DNA from: Thermoproteota archaeon
GTDB lineage: Archaea; Korarchaeota; Korarchaeia; B14-G2
Length of the DNA: 6,596 bases
Reading direction: 5' to 3'
NCBI GenBank assembly: GCA_003661385.1
Contig: QMWA01000100.1
Location: 1 to 6,596, forward strand
The notes under the pieces were generated by a model. That model was not told where the DNA came from and searched no databases. It saw only the letters and a list, made by a program, of their open reading frames with translations. A program made the position numbers and the translations under genes. Positions 1 to 5,778 of the stretch are shown here, one piece after another; the first letter of the stretch is position 1, and each line of letters starts with the position of its first letter.

Positions 1-411
1 CTCTAGCGCTTTCCTGGCAGCCTTCCTGTATGCTTCTACTATGAGTGTCGGGTGGATTTCTAGGTCTATTAGCTCCTCAGCCGCTTTAAGAAGTTCTCCG
101 GTCAAGATGACTGATGTTGTTGTGCCATCTCCAGCCTCTTGGTCTGTTGCCTTAGCTACCTCGACCATCATCTTTGCTATGGGGTGCTCGACTTCGATTT
201 CCTTCATGACAGTAGCTCCATCTCCTGTGACGACCACATCGCCGAAGGAGTCCACTAGCATCTTCATCATGGACTTTGGACCTAGTGTTGTTCGCACAGC
301 ATCTGCCACGGCTTTCGCCACGGATATGTTTGTCCTCAGGGCTTCTCTACCTCTAACCCTAGTGGTGCCCTCCTTCAAGATTAAGACAGGTATTCCTTGT
401 CCTGACATCAT
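1..411 (-). CDS. ths: Thermosome (group II chaperonin) subunit, N-terminal part, cut by the window edge
   Basis: This is the N-terminal 137 codons of a group II chaperonin subunit. The family forms a double-ring cytoplasmic ATPase that folds proteins. Reading the minus strand gives a clean frame from two tandem ATG codons (411 and 408) to base 1. Visible motifs are [13 protein letters not shown] (about residues 42-54), TGDGAT (62-67) and GDGTTTS (94-100), which form the nucleotide-binding and catalytic equatorial domain; the aspartate of GDGTTT is the conserved ATPase residue. The remaining roughly 400 residues (intermediate, apical and second equatorial parts) lie outside the window. Either ATG could be the start. 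A GGTGG element five bases upstream of the first ATG supports initiation there. The gene is transcribed divergently from lhr. Archaea often carry several thermosome paralogues, and alpha or beta cannot be assigned from this part. Identification as a thermosome is essentially certain. Confidence 0.97.
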
Positions 412-416
412 TCAAA

Positions 417-421
417 CCACC
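417..421 (-). promoter_or_regulatory. Shine-Dalgarno-like site of the thermosome gene
   Basis: On the minus strand GGTGG lies five bases before the first ATG of the thermosome gene. It partly matches the archaeal anti-Shine-Dalgarno complement GGAGGTGAT. If it is used, this gene has a leader, unlike the nearly leaderless neighbours. That would fit a promoter placed further upstream. Confidence 0.45.
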
Positions 422-550
422 CTATAGCTTTGGTATGAGCATCATGGCAGCACTCAACGGCTTGAATACTACTCCTATAGCTAGGATTGTGTAGGATAGA
501 TTTAAACTTATTGGCTAGCTGTGAGCTTCCCCTGGCATGGTGTGAAAGGC

Positions 551-557
551 TTTATTA
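551..557 (+). promoter_or_regulatory. Candidate TATA box for lhr
   Basis: TTTATTA is centred about 29 bp upstream of the lhr ATG at 583. That would place transcription start only a few bases before the start codon, giving a leaderless or near-leaderless mRNA. A GAGGA element at 566-570 lies 12 bases before the ATG, rather far for a Shine-Dalgarno site. It would only matter if transcription began further upstream, for example from the TTTAAA at 501. Confidence 0.4.
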
Positions 558-582
558 GGGTAGCTGAGGAAATGAGCTTGGT

Positions 583-2907
583 ATGGCTGTTAAGGGGGCA
601 TTCAGGCTTCTCAGACCTGAGATTGTGGCGTGGCTTGAGAGCTGTAGGATCTTAGAGCCTACTCCAGTGCAGGAGAAGTGCATCCCCATCATCTTAAGAG
701 GCGTGAATGTTTTGGTAACTTCTCCCACAGGCACTGGGAAGACTGAGGCTGCTGTCCTGCCTATAGCCAGCAAGATGCTGGATGACAGAGATAATAGGCC
801 TATAGCCCTATATGTGACGCCTCTAAGAGCTCTCAATAGGGATGTCTTCAGCAGGCTTCAAGCCCTTTTCAGGAGGATAGGGCTTGAGATCTCTGTGAGG
901 CATGGAGATACGCCTGAGAGCATTAGGAGAAGACAGGCTGCTAAGATGCCTGACATGCTGATCACAACTCCTGAGACTTTGCAGATAATGTTGGGAGGGA
1001 GGAAGCTTAGGGAGGGGCTTTCTAGAGTTAAGTTCGTGGTAGTAGACGAGGTTCATCAGCTAGCGTTCAATAAGAGAGGAGCCCAGTTGTCTGCTGGGTT
1101 AGAGAGGCTTAGAGAGCTGTCAGGGGGCTTCCAGGTGGTAGGACTTTCTGCAACAATAGGCTCTCTGGATGAAGCTGCTAAGGTGCTGTTTGGCTCTAGG
1201 AGCTATCAGGTAGTTGATATGGGTAGTGTTAAGAAGTTTGAGGCTAGAGTCGTCATGATAAGTGGGTTAGGGGATAGAGAGGTTTGCGGAGCTATAGATG
1301 AGGCCTGTAGGGGAGCTAGGTCAGCTCTTGTCTTCACCAATACCAGAGCTACAGCAGAGTACATTGCATCAGCTATGGGCAGGTATAGCTCAGGTAGCGG
1401 AGTGCATCACAGCTCGTTGTCTAGGGAGATGAGAGTAGCCGCTGAAGAGGGGCTTAAGTCAGGAGGTCTTAGGCTTCTAGTGTGTACAAGCTCTCTTGAG
1501 CTTGGGATAGACATTGGAACTGTGGATGTGGTTGTCCAGTATATGTCTCCTAGGCAGGTCACTAGATTCCTGCAGAGGGTAGGTAGATCTGGGCATAAGC
1601 CTACATCTGTGTCTAGGGGAGTTGTGCTCGCTACCAGCTGGGAAGACGCTCTGGAGGCTTCGGTTATAATCAGGAGAGCTAAGCTCGGAGAGCTTGATGC
1701 TGAGGAGGCACCTAGGAGCCCGCTTGATGTCCTATGCCATCAGCTTGCTGGTCTGATCATCGAGAGAGGAAGTATGCCGCTGGAGGAGGCTCTCAGAGTT
1801 CTCAGGAGATCCTATCTGTTTAGGGAGCTTGATGAGGGCATTTTGGTCAAAGTGCTCAGCTACATGGCGGAGAGGTGGCCTAGCTTAGCTGTCTTAAGAG
1901 ATGGTGTAGCTAAAAAGCCCTTTGACGCAAGCACACTGTACAAGTACTACTTTGAGTGCGTCTCGATGATACCTGATATCAGAACATTTGAAGCTATAGA
2001 TGAGGAAGGAAGGAAGATTGGGGTCTTAGATGAGCCCTTCGTACTCGAGTACTGCAGAGAGGGAAGTAAGATAGTAGTTGGAGGGGCTACATGGCATGTT
2101 ATAGGAGTAAGGGGGGGTAGGGTGGTTCTCAAGAGAGTAAGCGAAGAAGGAGGAGTTGTCCCTAGCTGGATTGGAGAAGACCTTCCAGTTTCACTTGAGA
2201 TAGCTGTTGAAGTCGGATCTCTGAGGGAGAGGGCTAAGGAGGCTGCTGAGATTGGAGCCGAGGCTGAGGTGGCTGCTGAGCTCATGGAAATGTATCCGTT
2301 CTGCGACCCTAGGGCATTTAGAGAGCTATTTAGCTGTGTTAAGTGGGCAATAAAGGAGGGTATGCCTGTCCCATCCCCAGGTAGGGTTGTTGTAGAAGAG
2401 ACTAGCGAGTTCACTGTGGTACATAGCTGCTTTGGAACTAGAGTCAATAGAACCTTAGGTGATGCTCTCAGAGGGAAGCTGCGTGAGCTTGGAGTCGACG
2501 TGAGGGCTGTAGTAGACCCGTATAGGGTTTATGTGATGCCAGCTGTACCATGTGAGAGTGTCGCAGGTATGCTCGATGAGATGAACTTGAGCGGAGTTGA
2601 GGATATGGTGCTTAAGCAGCCTGATCTACCTGCTTTCAGGAGGAGGCTTGTCAATGTGGCTAAGAGGTTTGGAGCTATAGACAGAAAGGTGAGTGCTGTT
2701 GACTTGCCACCTATCAGGCTTTTTGACATGTTCTATGGCACACCGGTTTTTGACGAAGCATTAAGTGAGGTTATGAGGCTTGACTATGATTTAAGTGGCG
2801 TGAGGCGTGTTTTGGGTGGAATCAAGTCAGGCAGGATAGAAGCAGCCTGCTTTGTTTGCAGCGATGGGAGCCCATTTGCTAGAGTTGGTATATGGAGGCT
2901 GAGTTAG
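583..2907 (+). CDS. lhr: Lhr-family superfamily 2 DNA/RNA helicase (Lhr core)
   Basis: The 774-residue protein is an ATP-dependent SF2 helicase of the Lhr (large helicase-related) family, whose members act 3'-5' on branched DNA and RNA:DNA hybrids in repair or RNA metabolism. Motifs in order are a Q-motif-like TPVQE (27-31), Walker A SPTGTGKT (47-54), TTPE (128-131), Walker B DEVH (155-158), SAT (189-191), FTNTR (251-255), SSLELGIDIG (303-312) and QRVGRSGH (331-338). A winged-helix region follows at about 380-440. The Lhr-specific C-terminal part is clear: GATWHVIGV (501-509), GEDLPVSLEIAVEVG (531-545) and VVHSCFGTRVN (612-622). The last recognisable Lhr element is GSPFARVGI (762-770), four residues before the end. 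At 774 residues it is a little short of the usual 850-950 for archaeal relatives and has no cysteine-rich C-terminal extension. ATG 583 is the only standard start after the in-frame TGA at 565. The gene converges on the surface-protein gene, and the stop codons overlap. Whether it is the aLhr1 or aLhr2 subtype is not decidable here. Confidence 0.95.
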   Translation: MAVKGAFRLLRPEIVAWLESCRILEPTPVQEKCIPIILRGVNVLVTSPTGTGKTEAAVLPIASKMLDDRDNRPIALYVTPLRALNRDVFSRLQALFRRIGLEISVRHGDTPESIRRRQAAKMPDMLITTPETLQIMLGGRKLREGLSRVKFVVVDEVHQLAFNKRGAQLSAGLERLRELSGGFQVVGLSATIGSLDEAAKVLFGSRSYQVVDMGSVKKFEARVVMISGLGDREVCGAIDEACRGARSALVFTNTRATAEYIASAMGRYSSGSGVHHSSLSREMRVAAEEGLKSGGLRLLVCTSSLELGIDIGTVDVVVQYMSPRQVTRFLQRVGRSGHKPTSVSRGVVLATSWEDALEASVIIRRAKLGELDAEEAPRSPLDVLCHQLAGLIIERGSMPLEEALRVLRRSYLFRELDEGILVKVLSYMAERWPSLAVLRDGVAKKPFDASTLYKYYFECVSMIPDIRTFEAIDEEGRKIGVLDEPFVLEYCREGSKIVVGGATWHVIGVRGGRVVLKRVSEEGGVVPSWIGEDLPVSLEIAVEVGSLRERAKEAAEIGAEAEVAAELMEMYPFCDPRAFRELFSCVKWAIKEGMPVPSPGRVVVEETSEFTVVHSCFGTRVNRTLGDALRGKLRELGVDVRAVVDPYRVYVMPAVPCESVAGMLDEMNLSGVEDMVLKQPDLPAFRRRLVNVAKRFGAIDRKVSAVDLPPIRLFDMFYGTPVFDEALSEVMRLDYDLSGVRRVLGGIKSGRIEAACFVCSDGSPFARVGIWRLS

Positions 2908-4364
2908 ACTTCAGGAATCTCCTTGAAGACCTCTTCTATGACTTTCCTCTTCCTGTGCCTGGTGAGGTACGTGATTATGGCTGCTAGTGCTATTGCTAGA
3001 GCTGCTATAGCTGCAGCTGCCCCTATGCCCTCTTCTTCGCCCTCTGGTGTGGCCGTGTGCGATGGGGATGAGAGAGGGGAGGTTTTCTCCTGCTCCATTT
3101 GAGGTGTTAGCTTAGGGGTAGTTGGAGATGGGGGCTTTGGAGAGACTGTTGGGGAGGGGAGGACTACACTGAACACTGTAGTTGAGGGCATGTACCCACT
3201 TTTAGAAACTGTTAGGTTGTGCATCCCAGCTGCTGAGGTTGCTATATAGACTATGCCTCTAGTGTCTGTGTAGCATGTTGTGACTGTTCCATTAGGGTAC
3301 CTGACTGTAACTTCAGCTCCCTTGATAGGTGCTTTGGTCATTGAGTCATATACCCTGACCTTGGCTAGCTTCCTAGCTGGCTGCAAGCTCACCTCGATGG
3401 ATAGCTTCCTGAGTACGTGTATTCTCACCCATGTCATGTTAGTGTACTTTCCGTTAGCCCAGACTACCACCTTAACTGCGTATGAGCCGGGAGCTAGAGC
3501 TGAAGTCTCTAGAGGAATGGCCTCAGATACCTCAGTGGATGGAGGGACTGTAAAGGATTTACTTCCAAATACTGCAGCCTCTGGCATGCTCCATGCGACT
3601 TCTATATCGATTGGGCTAGCTAGCTGATTAGATGCTTTAACTAGCAGCTGACTGCTTGATGCCCCGCTTCTCAGCTGTATGCTGGTGTAGATGCTGGAGC
3701 GCACTATGAGTATTCTGTGCATGCTTGATAGGGTTATGTTGCCAGCAGAGACCTTTACATGCACCTCATAGGGGCCTGTACTCCAGTTTGAGGTCGTAAG
3801 CTGGATGTCAGGGGAGTCTATTGCTGTTATAGACCTTGGAGGTAGGGTTATAGTGGCTTGAGCTGTGTATGCTGACTTATTGTTTGATGCAGTGACTGTG
3901 ATGGTAGCTGTTATAGACTCATCGACTGTGTTGGCTATCTTAAAGGCTAGTGGGAGCCTAGACCCGAGGGGTATCTCGTATGGTAGCTCTGGGGGGACTA
4001 GGATCAGTGGAGGTATCTCTACTCTGAAGTAGTATACGGCTAGTAGCTGTGAGCCTGCTCTGACTTCTAGCTTCCACACTCCACGTGGAGCTGACAGCGG
4101 GAGCCTGTACATGTATATGGCTTCTCCTAAGACCACATGGACCGATCTCTCATCTACCATGGTTCCATTGGGAGCATATAGGGCGGCCAGCAGCAGTATT
4201 CCTGAGGCCTTTTCTCCGGCCTGTGTTCGGACGTACATTACACATCTAATGGTCTCCAGAGGATGGTAGGATTCTCTTGTGAAGCCTCCAGTTATGGTGT
4301 ACTGTTGCATAGCCTGTGCTTGTAGTAGGATTATTATGACTGATGCTATAGCCTGTGTTCTCAG
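2904..4364 (-). CDS. Secreted, C-terminally membrane-anchored, N-glycosylation-rich surface protein (unknown function)
   Basis: I do not recognise a named family; the architecture is a type I surface protein. From the first ATG (4310) the frame gives 468 residues. The 18 in-frame codons before it encode a classic signal peptide: one arginine, a core of AIASVIIILL and an AQA cleavage site directly before Met-4310. I therefore extend the gene to a CTG at 4364, although no ATG, GTG or TTG lies in this frame upstream, and a TGA sits at 4373-4371. Numbering from the ATG, residues 3-98 resemble an MG2-like beta-sandwich (YHPLETI, then a GVWKLEV-type strand). Two CARDB-like beta-sandwiches lie at about 104-205 and 208-300, and a carboxypeptidase-regulatory-like domain at about 302-381 (APIKGAEVTV, then TDTRGIVYI). 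A Pro/Ser/Thr-rich stalk spans 383-427, followed by a transmembrane helix (428-449) and a basic tail RHRKRK. Seven N-X-S/T sequons occur (N48, 144, 175, 191, 291, 340, 365). The domain names come from pattern reading only. The gene lies downstream of the epimerase on the same strand. Confidence 0.85.
   Translation of the reverse strand: MRTQAIASVIIILLQAQAMQQYTITGGFTRESYHPLETIRCVMYVRTQAGEKASGILLLAALYAPNGTMVDERSVHVVLGEAIYMYRLPLSAPRGVWKLEVRAGSQLLAVYYFRVEIPPLILVPPELPYEIPLGSRLPLAFKIANTVDESITATITVTASNNKSAYTAQATITLPPRSITAIDSPDIQLTTSNWSTGPYEVHVKVSAGNITLSSMHRILIVRSSIYTSIQLRSGASSSQLLVKASNQLASPIDIEVAWSMPEAAVFGSKSFTVPPSTEVSEAIPLETSALAPGSYAVKVVVWANGKYTNMTWVRIHVLRKLSIEVSLQPARKLAKVRVYDSMTKAPIKGAEVTVRYPNGTVTTCYTDTRGIVYIATSAAGMHNLTVSKSGYMPSTTVFSVVLPSPTVSPKPPSPTTPKLTPQMEQEKTSPLSSPSHTATPEGEEEGIGAAAAIAALAIALAAIITYLTRHRKRKVIEEVFKEIPEV
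2909..2928 (+). terminator. Weak hairpin just past the lhr stop, possible 3' end signal
   Basis: CTTCAGG and CCTTGAAG form an inverted repeat with one bulged base and a five-base loop (AATCT), starting two bases after the lhr stop codon. The next 30 bases are pyrimidine-rich but have no true T-run. The hairpin sits inside the last codons of the convergent surface-protein gene, so its sequence is also constrained by coding. Its role as a terminator is speculative. Confidence 0.25.
4311..4364 (-). other. Signal-peptide coding segment without a standard start codon
   Basis: These 18 codons read LRTQAIASVIIILLQAQA in frame with the downstream ATG. They give an arginine-containing N-region, a hydrophobic core and an A-X-A signal peptidase site. 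The first possible initiator is CTG at 4364. A GTG at 4374 is one base out of frame. Removing one A of the AAA at 4366-4368 would give a GTG start and the N-terminus MINLRTQAIASV. The segment is almost certainly translated; which mechanism starts it is open. Confidence 0.7.
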
Positions 4365-4369
4365 GTTTA

Positions 4370-4375
4370 ATCACC
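4370..4375 (-). promoter_or_regulatory. GGTGAT Shine-Dalgarno-like site before the CTG
   Basis: On the minus strand GGTGAT is a six-base match to the archaeal Shine-Dalgarno consensus (GGAGGTGAT). It lies five bases before the CTG at 4364, a suitable distance for initiation there. The same bases contain the out-of-frame GTG at 4374, so the site can be read either as a ribosome binding site or as a leaderless start codon. Confidence 0.4.
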
Positions 4376-4395
4376 AAGTGAACCTGGATGCATAC

Positions 4396-4403
4396 TGTAT
4401 TAA
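4396..4403 (-). promoter_or_regulatory. Candidate TATA box for the surface-protein gene
   Basis: TTAATACA on the minus strand is preceded by a purine-rich GGAAAGGA, which resembles a BRE. It is centred about 26 bp before the GTG at 4374 and about 36 bp before the CTG at 4364, and it lies in the 61-bp gap after the epimerase stop. It suggests the surface protein has its own promoter, possibly as well as read-through from the epimerase gene. Confidence 0.4.
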
Positions 4404-4425
4404 TCCTTTCCTTCAGTAGGCAGGG

Positions 4426-5778
4426 TTAAGTTAGCCTCCTTCTTACAGCCTCTATAGCATCTGCTTCACCGAGCACTCTCACCTTCTCTCCTGCTTTTAG
4501 CTCCCGCGATATATGGGGGATCTCAGGCCTCCCCTCTTGAGTATAGATCAATGTCACTATAGCACCCATCTCCTGTATTTCATCTACTGTAACTGGAAGC
4601 TCTGTTTTTACTTCTATCAGCTCGAAGAGCGGAGCACCTGATCTATAGAAGGATGGGGACTTGAGCTCTATGCTTCCACTCTTGCTGAGGAGGATCTCGA
4701 CTATCCTCTCGCCTGCCCTCCCATCCCCAAATGGGCAGGGCTGCTCTCTCGCTTTCTCTCTGATCTCAGGGTCGTACAGCACCCTCTTCACAGCATCAAC
4801 TATCCTCTCTGTGTCACACCCTACTAGGATGTTGGTTCCTAACTCGACAGTCTCCGGTCTCTCCGTGTTCTTTCTCAGGGTTATGCATGGTATCCCGATG
4901 GCAGCAGCCTCCTCTTGCACTCCTCCTGAGTCTGTTAAAGCTAGCATGCTTGCCTGTAGTACCCTTAAGAAGTCTATGTATCTCAGTGGCTTCAGGAGGT
5001 ATAGATGCTCTATCTTCTTCGCCCTCTTCCAGAGGCCATGTGCCTTTAGAGCCTCATACGTCCTTGGGTGGACTGGGAATAGGAATATTAGCTCGTCGAG
5101 CTGCTCTATTGCAGCTAGGATCCTCTCTAGGGCGTGTTTTGTTGTGTTGCTTGGGCGGTGAACTGTTAGAGTGGCTAAGGCCATGTCTTCGCTTAAGCCT
5201 AGGTCCTCTATGACATCAGACTCTCTCTTAGCCCTCTCTAGGTACTTCATCAGCGCATCTATGCCTGTGTTCCCTGTCACATGCACTGAGGACGGGTCTG
5301 CTCCCTCGTATAAGAGGTTTAATGCTGCTCTCTCTGTTGGAGCAAAGTTTAGAGAGGATATGGAGTCTACAATCCTCCTGTTTACCTCCTCAGGCATCGT
5401 CATGTCGAAGCTCCTGAGGCCCGCTTCTACGTGCGCAAATGGGACACCTAGCTTCACGGAGGCTAGCGCCACTGCAAGCACAGAGTTCGTGTCTCCTTGA
5501 GCTAGACACAAGTCTGGCTTGAATGTTAATATTACCTGCTCTGCCTTCACCATGGCTTCTCCTGTCTGAGATGCATGGGAGCCTGACCCAACTTCTAGGT
5601 CGAAGTCTGGCTCTCCTAGGTTGAAGTCTGATAGTATGGCATCTCTTAGCATTCTGTCATAGTGCTGGCCTGTATAGCAGAGTGCCCACTCAACCTCAGG
5701 GTGTACCTGGAGCTTCTCGAGTATCGGAGCTGTCTTCACTATTTCGGGCCTAGTTCCAACAAATACAAGAAGTCTCAA
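4426..5778 (-). CDS. wecB: Non-hydrolysing UDP-N-acetylglucosamine 2-epimerase with a C-terminal RCK_C-like domain
   Basis: The enzyme interconverts UDP-GlcNAc and UDP-ManNAc in the cytoplasm, supplying precursors for surface polysaccharide or N-glycans. Conserved elements are GTRPEIVK (8-15), TGQHYD (36-41), QGDTNS (94-99), HVEAGLR (116-122), PEEVNR (129-134), TVHRPSN (205-211), PVHPR (235-239), TDSGGVQEE (282-290), TERPE (305-309) and PFGDGRAGERI (349-359). GTRPE points to the non-hydrolysing WecB type rather than NeuC. The family usually ends around residue 365, but this protein runs to 450. The extra part (about 366-450) includes MGAIVTLIY, a Pro-containing turn, LKAGEKVRVLGEADAIEAV and a terminal helix, closely resembling the RCK_C/TrkA_C regulatory fold. 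The start is a TTG at 5778; no ATG or in-frame GTG lies close upstream, and the resulting MRLLVFVGTRPE is the normal family N-terminus. The gene is divergent from mtnA and upstream of the surface-protein gene. The epimerase assignment is firm; the extra domain is a pattern-based call. Confidence 0.95.
   Translation of the reverse strand: MRLLVFVGTRPEIVKTAPILEKLQVHPEVEWALCYTGQHYDRMLRDAILSDFNLGEPDFDLEVGSGSHASQTGEAMVKAEQVILTFKPDLCLAQGDTNSVLAVALASVKLGVPFAHVEAGLRSFDMTMPEEVNRRIVDSISSLNFAPTERAALNLLYEGADPSSVHVTGNTGIDALMKYLERAKRESDVIEDLGLSEDMALATLTVHRPSNTTKHALERILAAIEQLDELIFLFPVHPRTYEALKAHGLWKRAKKIEHLYLLKPLRYIDFLRVLQASMLALTDSGGVQEEAAAIGIPCITLRKNTERPETVELGTNILVGCDTERIVDAVKRVLYDPEIREKAREQPCPFGDGRAGERIVEILLSKSGSIELKSPSFYRSGAPLFELIEVKTELPVTVDEIQEMGAIVTLIYTQEGRPEIPHISRELKAGEKVRVLGEADAIEAVRRRLT
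4429..4683 (-). other. RCK_C/TrkA_C-like C-terminal domain of the epimerase
   Basis: These codons encode residues 366-450, beyond the normal end of the epimerase fold. Visible pattern: a beta-strand (LFELIEV, 384-390), a short helix with DEIQEMGA (399-406), a strand IVTLIY (407-412), a polar turn with a proline, then LKAGEKVRVLGEADAIEAV (427-445) and a terminal RRRL. RCK_C domains show the same order: a hydrophobic strand, 'l..GD.l.v.G....i' and a final helix. They usually bind a small ligand and control K+ channels or transporters, so a ligand-controlled epimerase is an inference. Confidence 0.6.

Follow-up and report, generated by a model that had tools for sequence, protein, structure and literature searches.

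Why would a sugar-nucleotide epimerase carry a domain that is otherwise mainly known from potassium channels and transporters? This question is raised by a gene in the window, the whole 6,596-nucleotide stretch of DNA analysed here, which comes from an archaeon of the class that we take to be that of Candidatus Methanodesulfokora (Korarchaeia). Its product joins a WecB-type UDP-GlcNAc 2-epimerase to a C-terminal tail in which a model that saw only the letters (the sequence-only reading) had recognised, by visual pattern, an RCK_C/TrkA_C-like domain. Sugar 2-epimerases are the gatekeepers of ManNAc-based surface glycan synthesis, such as that of the S-layer and other envelope glycans, and the presence of an RCK_C domain suggests that the supply of surface sugars may be switched by a small molecule. 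Being an integral part of the enzyme, the predicted domain would offer a concrete handle on a possible archaeal regulation of envelope synthesis.

The epimerase and its C-terminal extension

The enzyme part of the protein is a full-length match to the WecB profile: TIGR00236 (wecB) covered residues 1-365 with 389 bits (cut-off 210), and Pfam Epimerase_2 covered residues 22-363 of the 450-residue protein (E 2e-106). The nearest solved relative was the M. jannaschii WecB (4NEQ), whose match spans residues 1-364 only. R10, K15, Q38, H39, D96, E118, E130/E131, H207, R208, and H237 were all invariant in our alignment A1, including the catalytic Asp, two Glu, and His (D96, E118, E130/E131, and H207). 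With the roles of residues in catalysis and UDP-GlcNAc allostery taken from earlier work (PMC11464976, PMC10622841), the catalytic residues and most of the activator-site residues of WecB are present in residues 1-365. By family and residues, the protein is thus predicted to convert UDP-GlcNAc to UDP-ManNAc. The likely role of this part would be to produce UDP-ManNAc for ManNAcA-type surface glycans, because the same genome encodes a dehydrogenase close to the UDP-ManNAc dehydrogenase models (with scores below their strict cut-offs) and because a UDP-ManNAc-dehydrogenase-like gene directly adjoins a WecB gene with a shortened tail in genome G030.

Table 1 Coordinates of the features in and next to the fusion gene
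Feature	Positions	Strand	Basis or remarks
WecB-RCK_C fusion gene	4426..5778	(-)	450 aa, TTG start; open reading frame and family profiles
Predicted non-hydrolysing UDP-GlcNAc 2-epimerase, aa 1-365	4684..5778	(-)	TIGR00236 E 1.7e-116; invariant columns of A1
Last epimerase helix, aa 355-365	4684..4716	(-)	Secondary structure of the model; T. thermophilus enzyme in PMC10622841
Linker, aa 366-380	4639..4683	(-)	Low model confidence; SPxF-type motif, which also ends the Thermococcus-like WecB stub
Predicted RCK_C (TrkA_C) domain, aa 381-450, strand-helix-strands-helix	4429..4638	(-)	Pfam TrkA_C; AlphaFold2; structural matches
Secreted-looking protein, 468 aa, between helicase and WecB	2904-4310	(-)	Carboxypeptidase-regulatory-like and MG2-like domains, C-terminal hydrophobic segment

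The sequence-only reading had placed an in-frame extension of about 85 residues after an epimerase end near residue 365, and this proved accurate: the TIGR00236 match ends at residue 365, and the frame runs on without an intervening stop for 85 residues (366-450, positions 4429-4683). For the tail alone, Pfam TrkA_C (PF02080) gave 24.2 bits (E 3e-5), with a curated cut-off of 27. Among the relatives, TrkA_C matched 15 of the 16 tails in the korarchaeal-class alignment (best E 1.5e-7), tails of same-class orthologues scored up to 32 bits, and the Pfam cut-off was passed at the WecB of genomes G003, G006, G007, G008, G011, G012, G015, and G020. In a profile-profile comparison against TrkA_C domains from archaeal genomes (hhalign), the korarchaeal tail obtained a probability of 96%.

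The structural comparison agreed with this assignment. AlphaFold2 modelled the tail (33 sequences) as a confident RCK_C fold, with the elements in the order strand, helix, strands, last strand, helix, and with a pLDDT of 92-95 over residues 387-450. The best Foldseek matches of this model were MthK, KhtT, and BusR. In VIA-align, all 50 of the 50 listed entries were RCK_C-bearing, including MthK, the Pyrococcus protein 1vct/2bko, KhtT, CpaA, BusR, KtrA, TrkA, and GsuK, with Z values of up to 10.1 and an rmsd of 1.7 over 69 residues. The model of the full-length protein had a mean pLDDT of 90 and a pTM of 0.83, with lower values in the tail (about 71-82) and values below 50 at residues 378-380. 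Sequence searches of the PDB gave no useful match with the tail alone as query, and the korarchaeal tail profile found the KtrA RCK_C domain 4xtt (E 0.15) and MthK (E 0.17), both weak. Since these sequence matches alone are weak, the case for RCK_C is carried by the fold comparison. Taking profile, profile-profile, and structure comparison together, we assign the tail as an RCK_C (TrkA_C) domain, the identity that had been proposed from its visual pattern.

A chance resemblance to RCK_C, or an artefact of assembly, is barely credible as an explanation. The window protein's own Pfam score does lie below the curated cut-off, but the tails of its relatives exceed it, the fold comparison matches RCK_C strongly and to the exclusion of other folds, and homologous tails are present in many genomes. 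An assembly artefact or frameshift could be ruled out because homologous tails occur at the same place in the relatives of the class and in further korarchaeal genomes.

The predicted fusion has parts in common with two sets of known proteins. Its whole catalytic part (residues 1-365) is shared with WecB/MnaA (TIGR00236; M. jannaschii 4NEQ/4NES, B. anthracis 3BEO, E. coli 1F6D), but the solved WecB-type chains match it only to about residue 360-378, and none of them has an RCK_C domain. Fold, length, and strand/helix pattern of the tail are those of the RCK_C/TrkA_C domains of MthK, TrkA, KtrA, CpaA, KhtT, and BusR. These known domains sit on a channel, a transporter subunit, or a transcription factor, whereas here the domain would sit on a soluble sugar-nucleotide enzyme and has no TrkA_N partner. 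Literature searches for WecB with RCK_C/TrkA_C, conducted mostly outside the subscription journals, found no paper that describes the fusion; the architecture may be listed in domain databases.

Distribution and evolution of the tail

Nearly every WecB that we inspected in the korarchaeal class carries the full tail, the exception being that of G014, whose tail is short and diverged. The full-tailed WecB-RCK_C is therefore the normal WecB form in this class and not a one-off. A shorter tail occurs in Methanobrevibacter, Methanosphaera, the Euryarchaeota MAG SZUA-158 (L045), and several other archaeal families. This tail looks homologous to that of the korarchaeal fusion and follows the same linker, but lacks the last RCK_C helix, and TrkA_C matched 10 of 30 such tails. 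In hhalign, tail alignment A4 reached 87% and tail alignment A2, mostly Methanobrevibacter, reached 22%, a weak value. We are less sure that the short tails of Methanobacteria are RCK_C domains; the A4 value and the Pfam matches point to this assignment. The architecture, which the sequence-only reading had called unusual, is indeed so with respect to bacterial and solved WecBs, but it is not unique, being standard in the korarchaeal class and widespread among archaea in its short form.

In the Methanobacteria WecB tails (L014-L042, L115-L130), the conserved xxFP strand motif is retained and the last helix is missing, which would leave a reduced, RCK_C-like fold. WecBs of family f10, which we infer to be Thermococcus-like, end just after the linker, which looks like a loss of the RCK_C domain at exactly this point or like its never having been gained there; those of f26/f46 end at the epimerase helix. 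The Thermococcus-like WecBs at L107, L109, L111, L112, L118, L122, and L132 stop right after the linker motif ..VKSSRFI. The tail was absent from all bacterial WecBs in our tree, and the M. jannaschii WecB has no RCK_C tail. Because the Methanobacteria form has no last helix and the Thermococcus-like WecBs have no such domain, RCK_C should be dispensable for epimerisation. Three bacterial WecB frames (L055, L061, and L080; 957, 745, and 727 residues) have the epimerase after a long N-terminal stretch; these stretches are possibly other fusions, or merely upstream open frames.

In a phylogeny built on the epimerase part, the proteins with a full tail grouped together (support 91), and only five changes were needed to explain the tail states of all proteins. 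This grouping and the small number of changes are compatible with a tail that was inherited vertically and was shortened or lost in places; the tree leaves the direction undecided. Across close pairs, dN/dS was mostly 0.09-0.18 in the tail and 0.04-0.07 in the enzyme. The tail is thus under purifying selection, yet changes at about double the rate of the enzyme.

A possible regulatory role

WecB-type epimerases are dimers that undergo lobe closure (PMC10622841, PMC11464976), and in the T. thermophilus enzyme the last epimerase helix crosses over from domain 2 to domain 1, the domain that forms the dimer (PMC10622841). We expect the fusion protein to dimerise via the N-terminal lobes and to act by closing its lobes; its RCK_C domain follows the helix that connects the two lobes. 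Since it is attached right after this bridging helix, the domain would be well placed to influence closure. The RCK_C domain of BusR dimerises and takes up its ligand in the intersubunit cleft (PMC8517857), and we therefore propose that two RCK_C domains pair across the WecB dimer. A small cytoplasmic ligand bound by the pair could pull or release the bridging helix, which would shift the balance between open and closed enzyme; the domain would then add a second allosteric control to the UDP-GlcNAc activator site. We infer the pairing, the binding of a ligand, and the direction of regulation. A gating of UDP-ManNAc supply by a small molecule or ion, which the sequence-only reading had suggested, is plausible.

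The explanation that we favour, with slightly better than even confidence for the whole of it, is that RCK_C on WecB acts as a dimeric, ligand-responsive regulator of the UDP-ManNAc-making epimerase. We consider it distinctly less probable, although a serious alternative, that the domain is a ligand-free structural add-on that stabilises the dimer or tetramerises the enzyme, for example at high temperature, without any switching. The RCK_C domain of BusR is dimeric even without ligand (PMC8517857), and the tail is shortened or missing in sister lineages. It also diverges faster than the enzyme, as expected of a mere structural appendage, and this speaks against a ligand-binding regulator. Purifying selection is compatible with either reading, but stability alone leaves unexplained why this otherwise regulatory domain has been retained. 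If the regulatory explanation is true, RCK_C would control a soluble metabolic enzyme, a previously undescribed control route for sugar 2-epimerases.

Candidate ligands and gene neighbourhood

The best structural matches of the tail include the c-di-AMP-bound RCK_C domains of KhtT, CpaA, and BusR. If the domain sensed c-di-AMP, like those of KtrA, CpaA, KhtT, and BusR, it would tie the supply of envelope sugars to osmotic signalling. The DAC domain of c-di-AMP synthases (PF02457) was matched in some archaea with short-tailed WecBs (G029, G051), but not in the genome of origin (G000, 91% complete) or in 28 relatives from its phylum, although 11 of 14 control genomes gave a match in the same search. 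As no DAC match was found in these genomes, c-di-AMP is disfavoured, sensing of this molecule by the tail is very unlikely, and the ligand is probably another one. We tentatively propose, with somewhat less than even credence, that a WecB-borne RCK_C domain switches the supply of envelope glycans in archaea in response to a cytoplasmic ligand other than c-di-AMP. The fusion may reveal an RCK_C ligand in lineages without c-di-AMP.

The genome of origin also encodes a protein of ~400 residues with two TrkA_C domains (G000:C166, L164), and proteins of this type are found across the class. The RCK_C domains of this protein probably use a ligand other than c-di-AMP as well, because the genome gave no match to a c-di-AMP synthase.

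A narrower form of the regulatory explanation, which we hold to be unlikely, is that the domain responds to metabolites of its own pathway, such as UDP-GlcNAc, UDP-ManNAc and UDP-ManNAcA, or to a related sugar phosphate, giving feedback like that of CMP-Neu5Ac on human GNE. Precedents for feedback and for substrate allostery among sugar 2-epimerases are described in PMC4793188 and PMC11464976. GNE is likewise a 2-epimerase under small-molecule feedback control (PMC4793188). It belongs to a different enzyme class, which lacks RCK_C, and is controlled by CMP-Neu5Ac. In several relatives, a hexulose-phosphate-synthase-like gene lies beside WecB, which speaks for this reading, but the homologue of this neighbour sits elsewhere in the genome of origin. 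To our knowledge, no RCK_C domain binds nucleotide sugars.

The gene order around WecB is partly conserved in the class (L204, L205, L206, L049, L051): thermosome, Lhr-type helicase, often a 3-hexulose-6-phosphate-synthase-like gene, WecB-RCK_C, and V-ATPase subunit I. In the window (positions 1-5778), thermosome, helicase, and WecB are kept, and the secreted-looking protein and an mtnA-like gene stand in place of the other neighbours.
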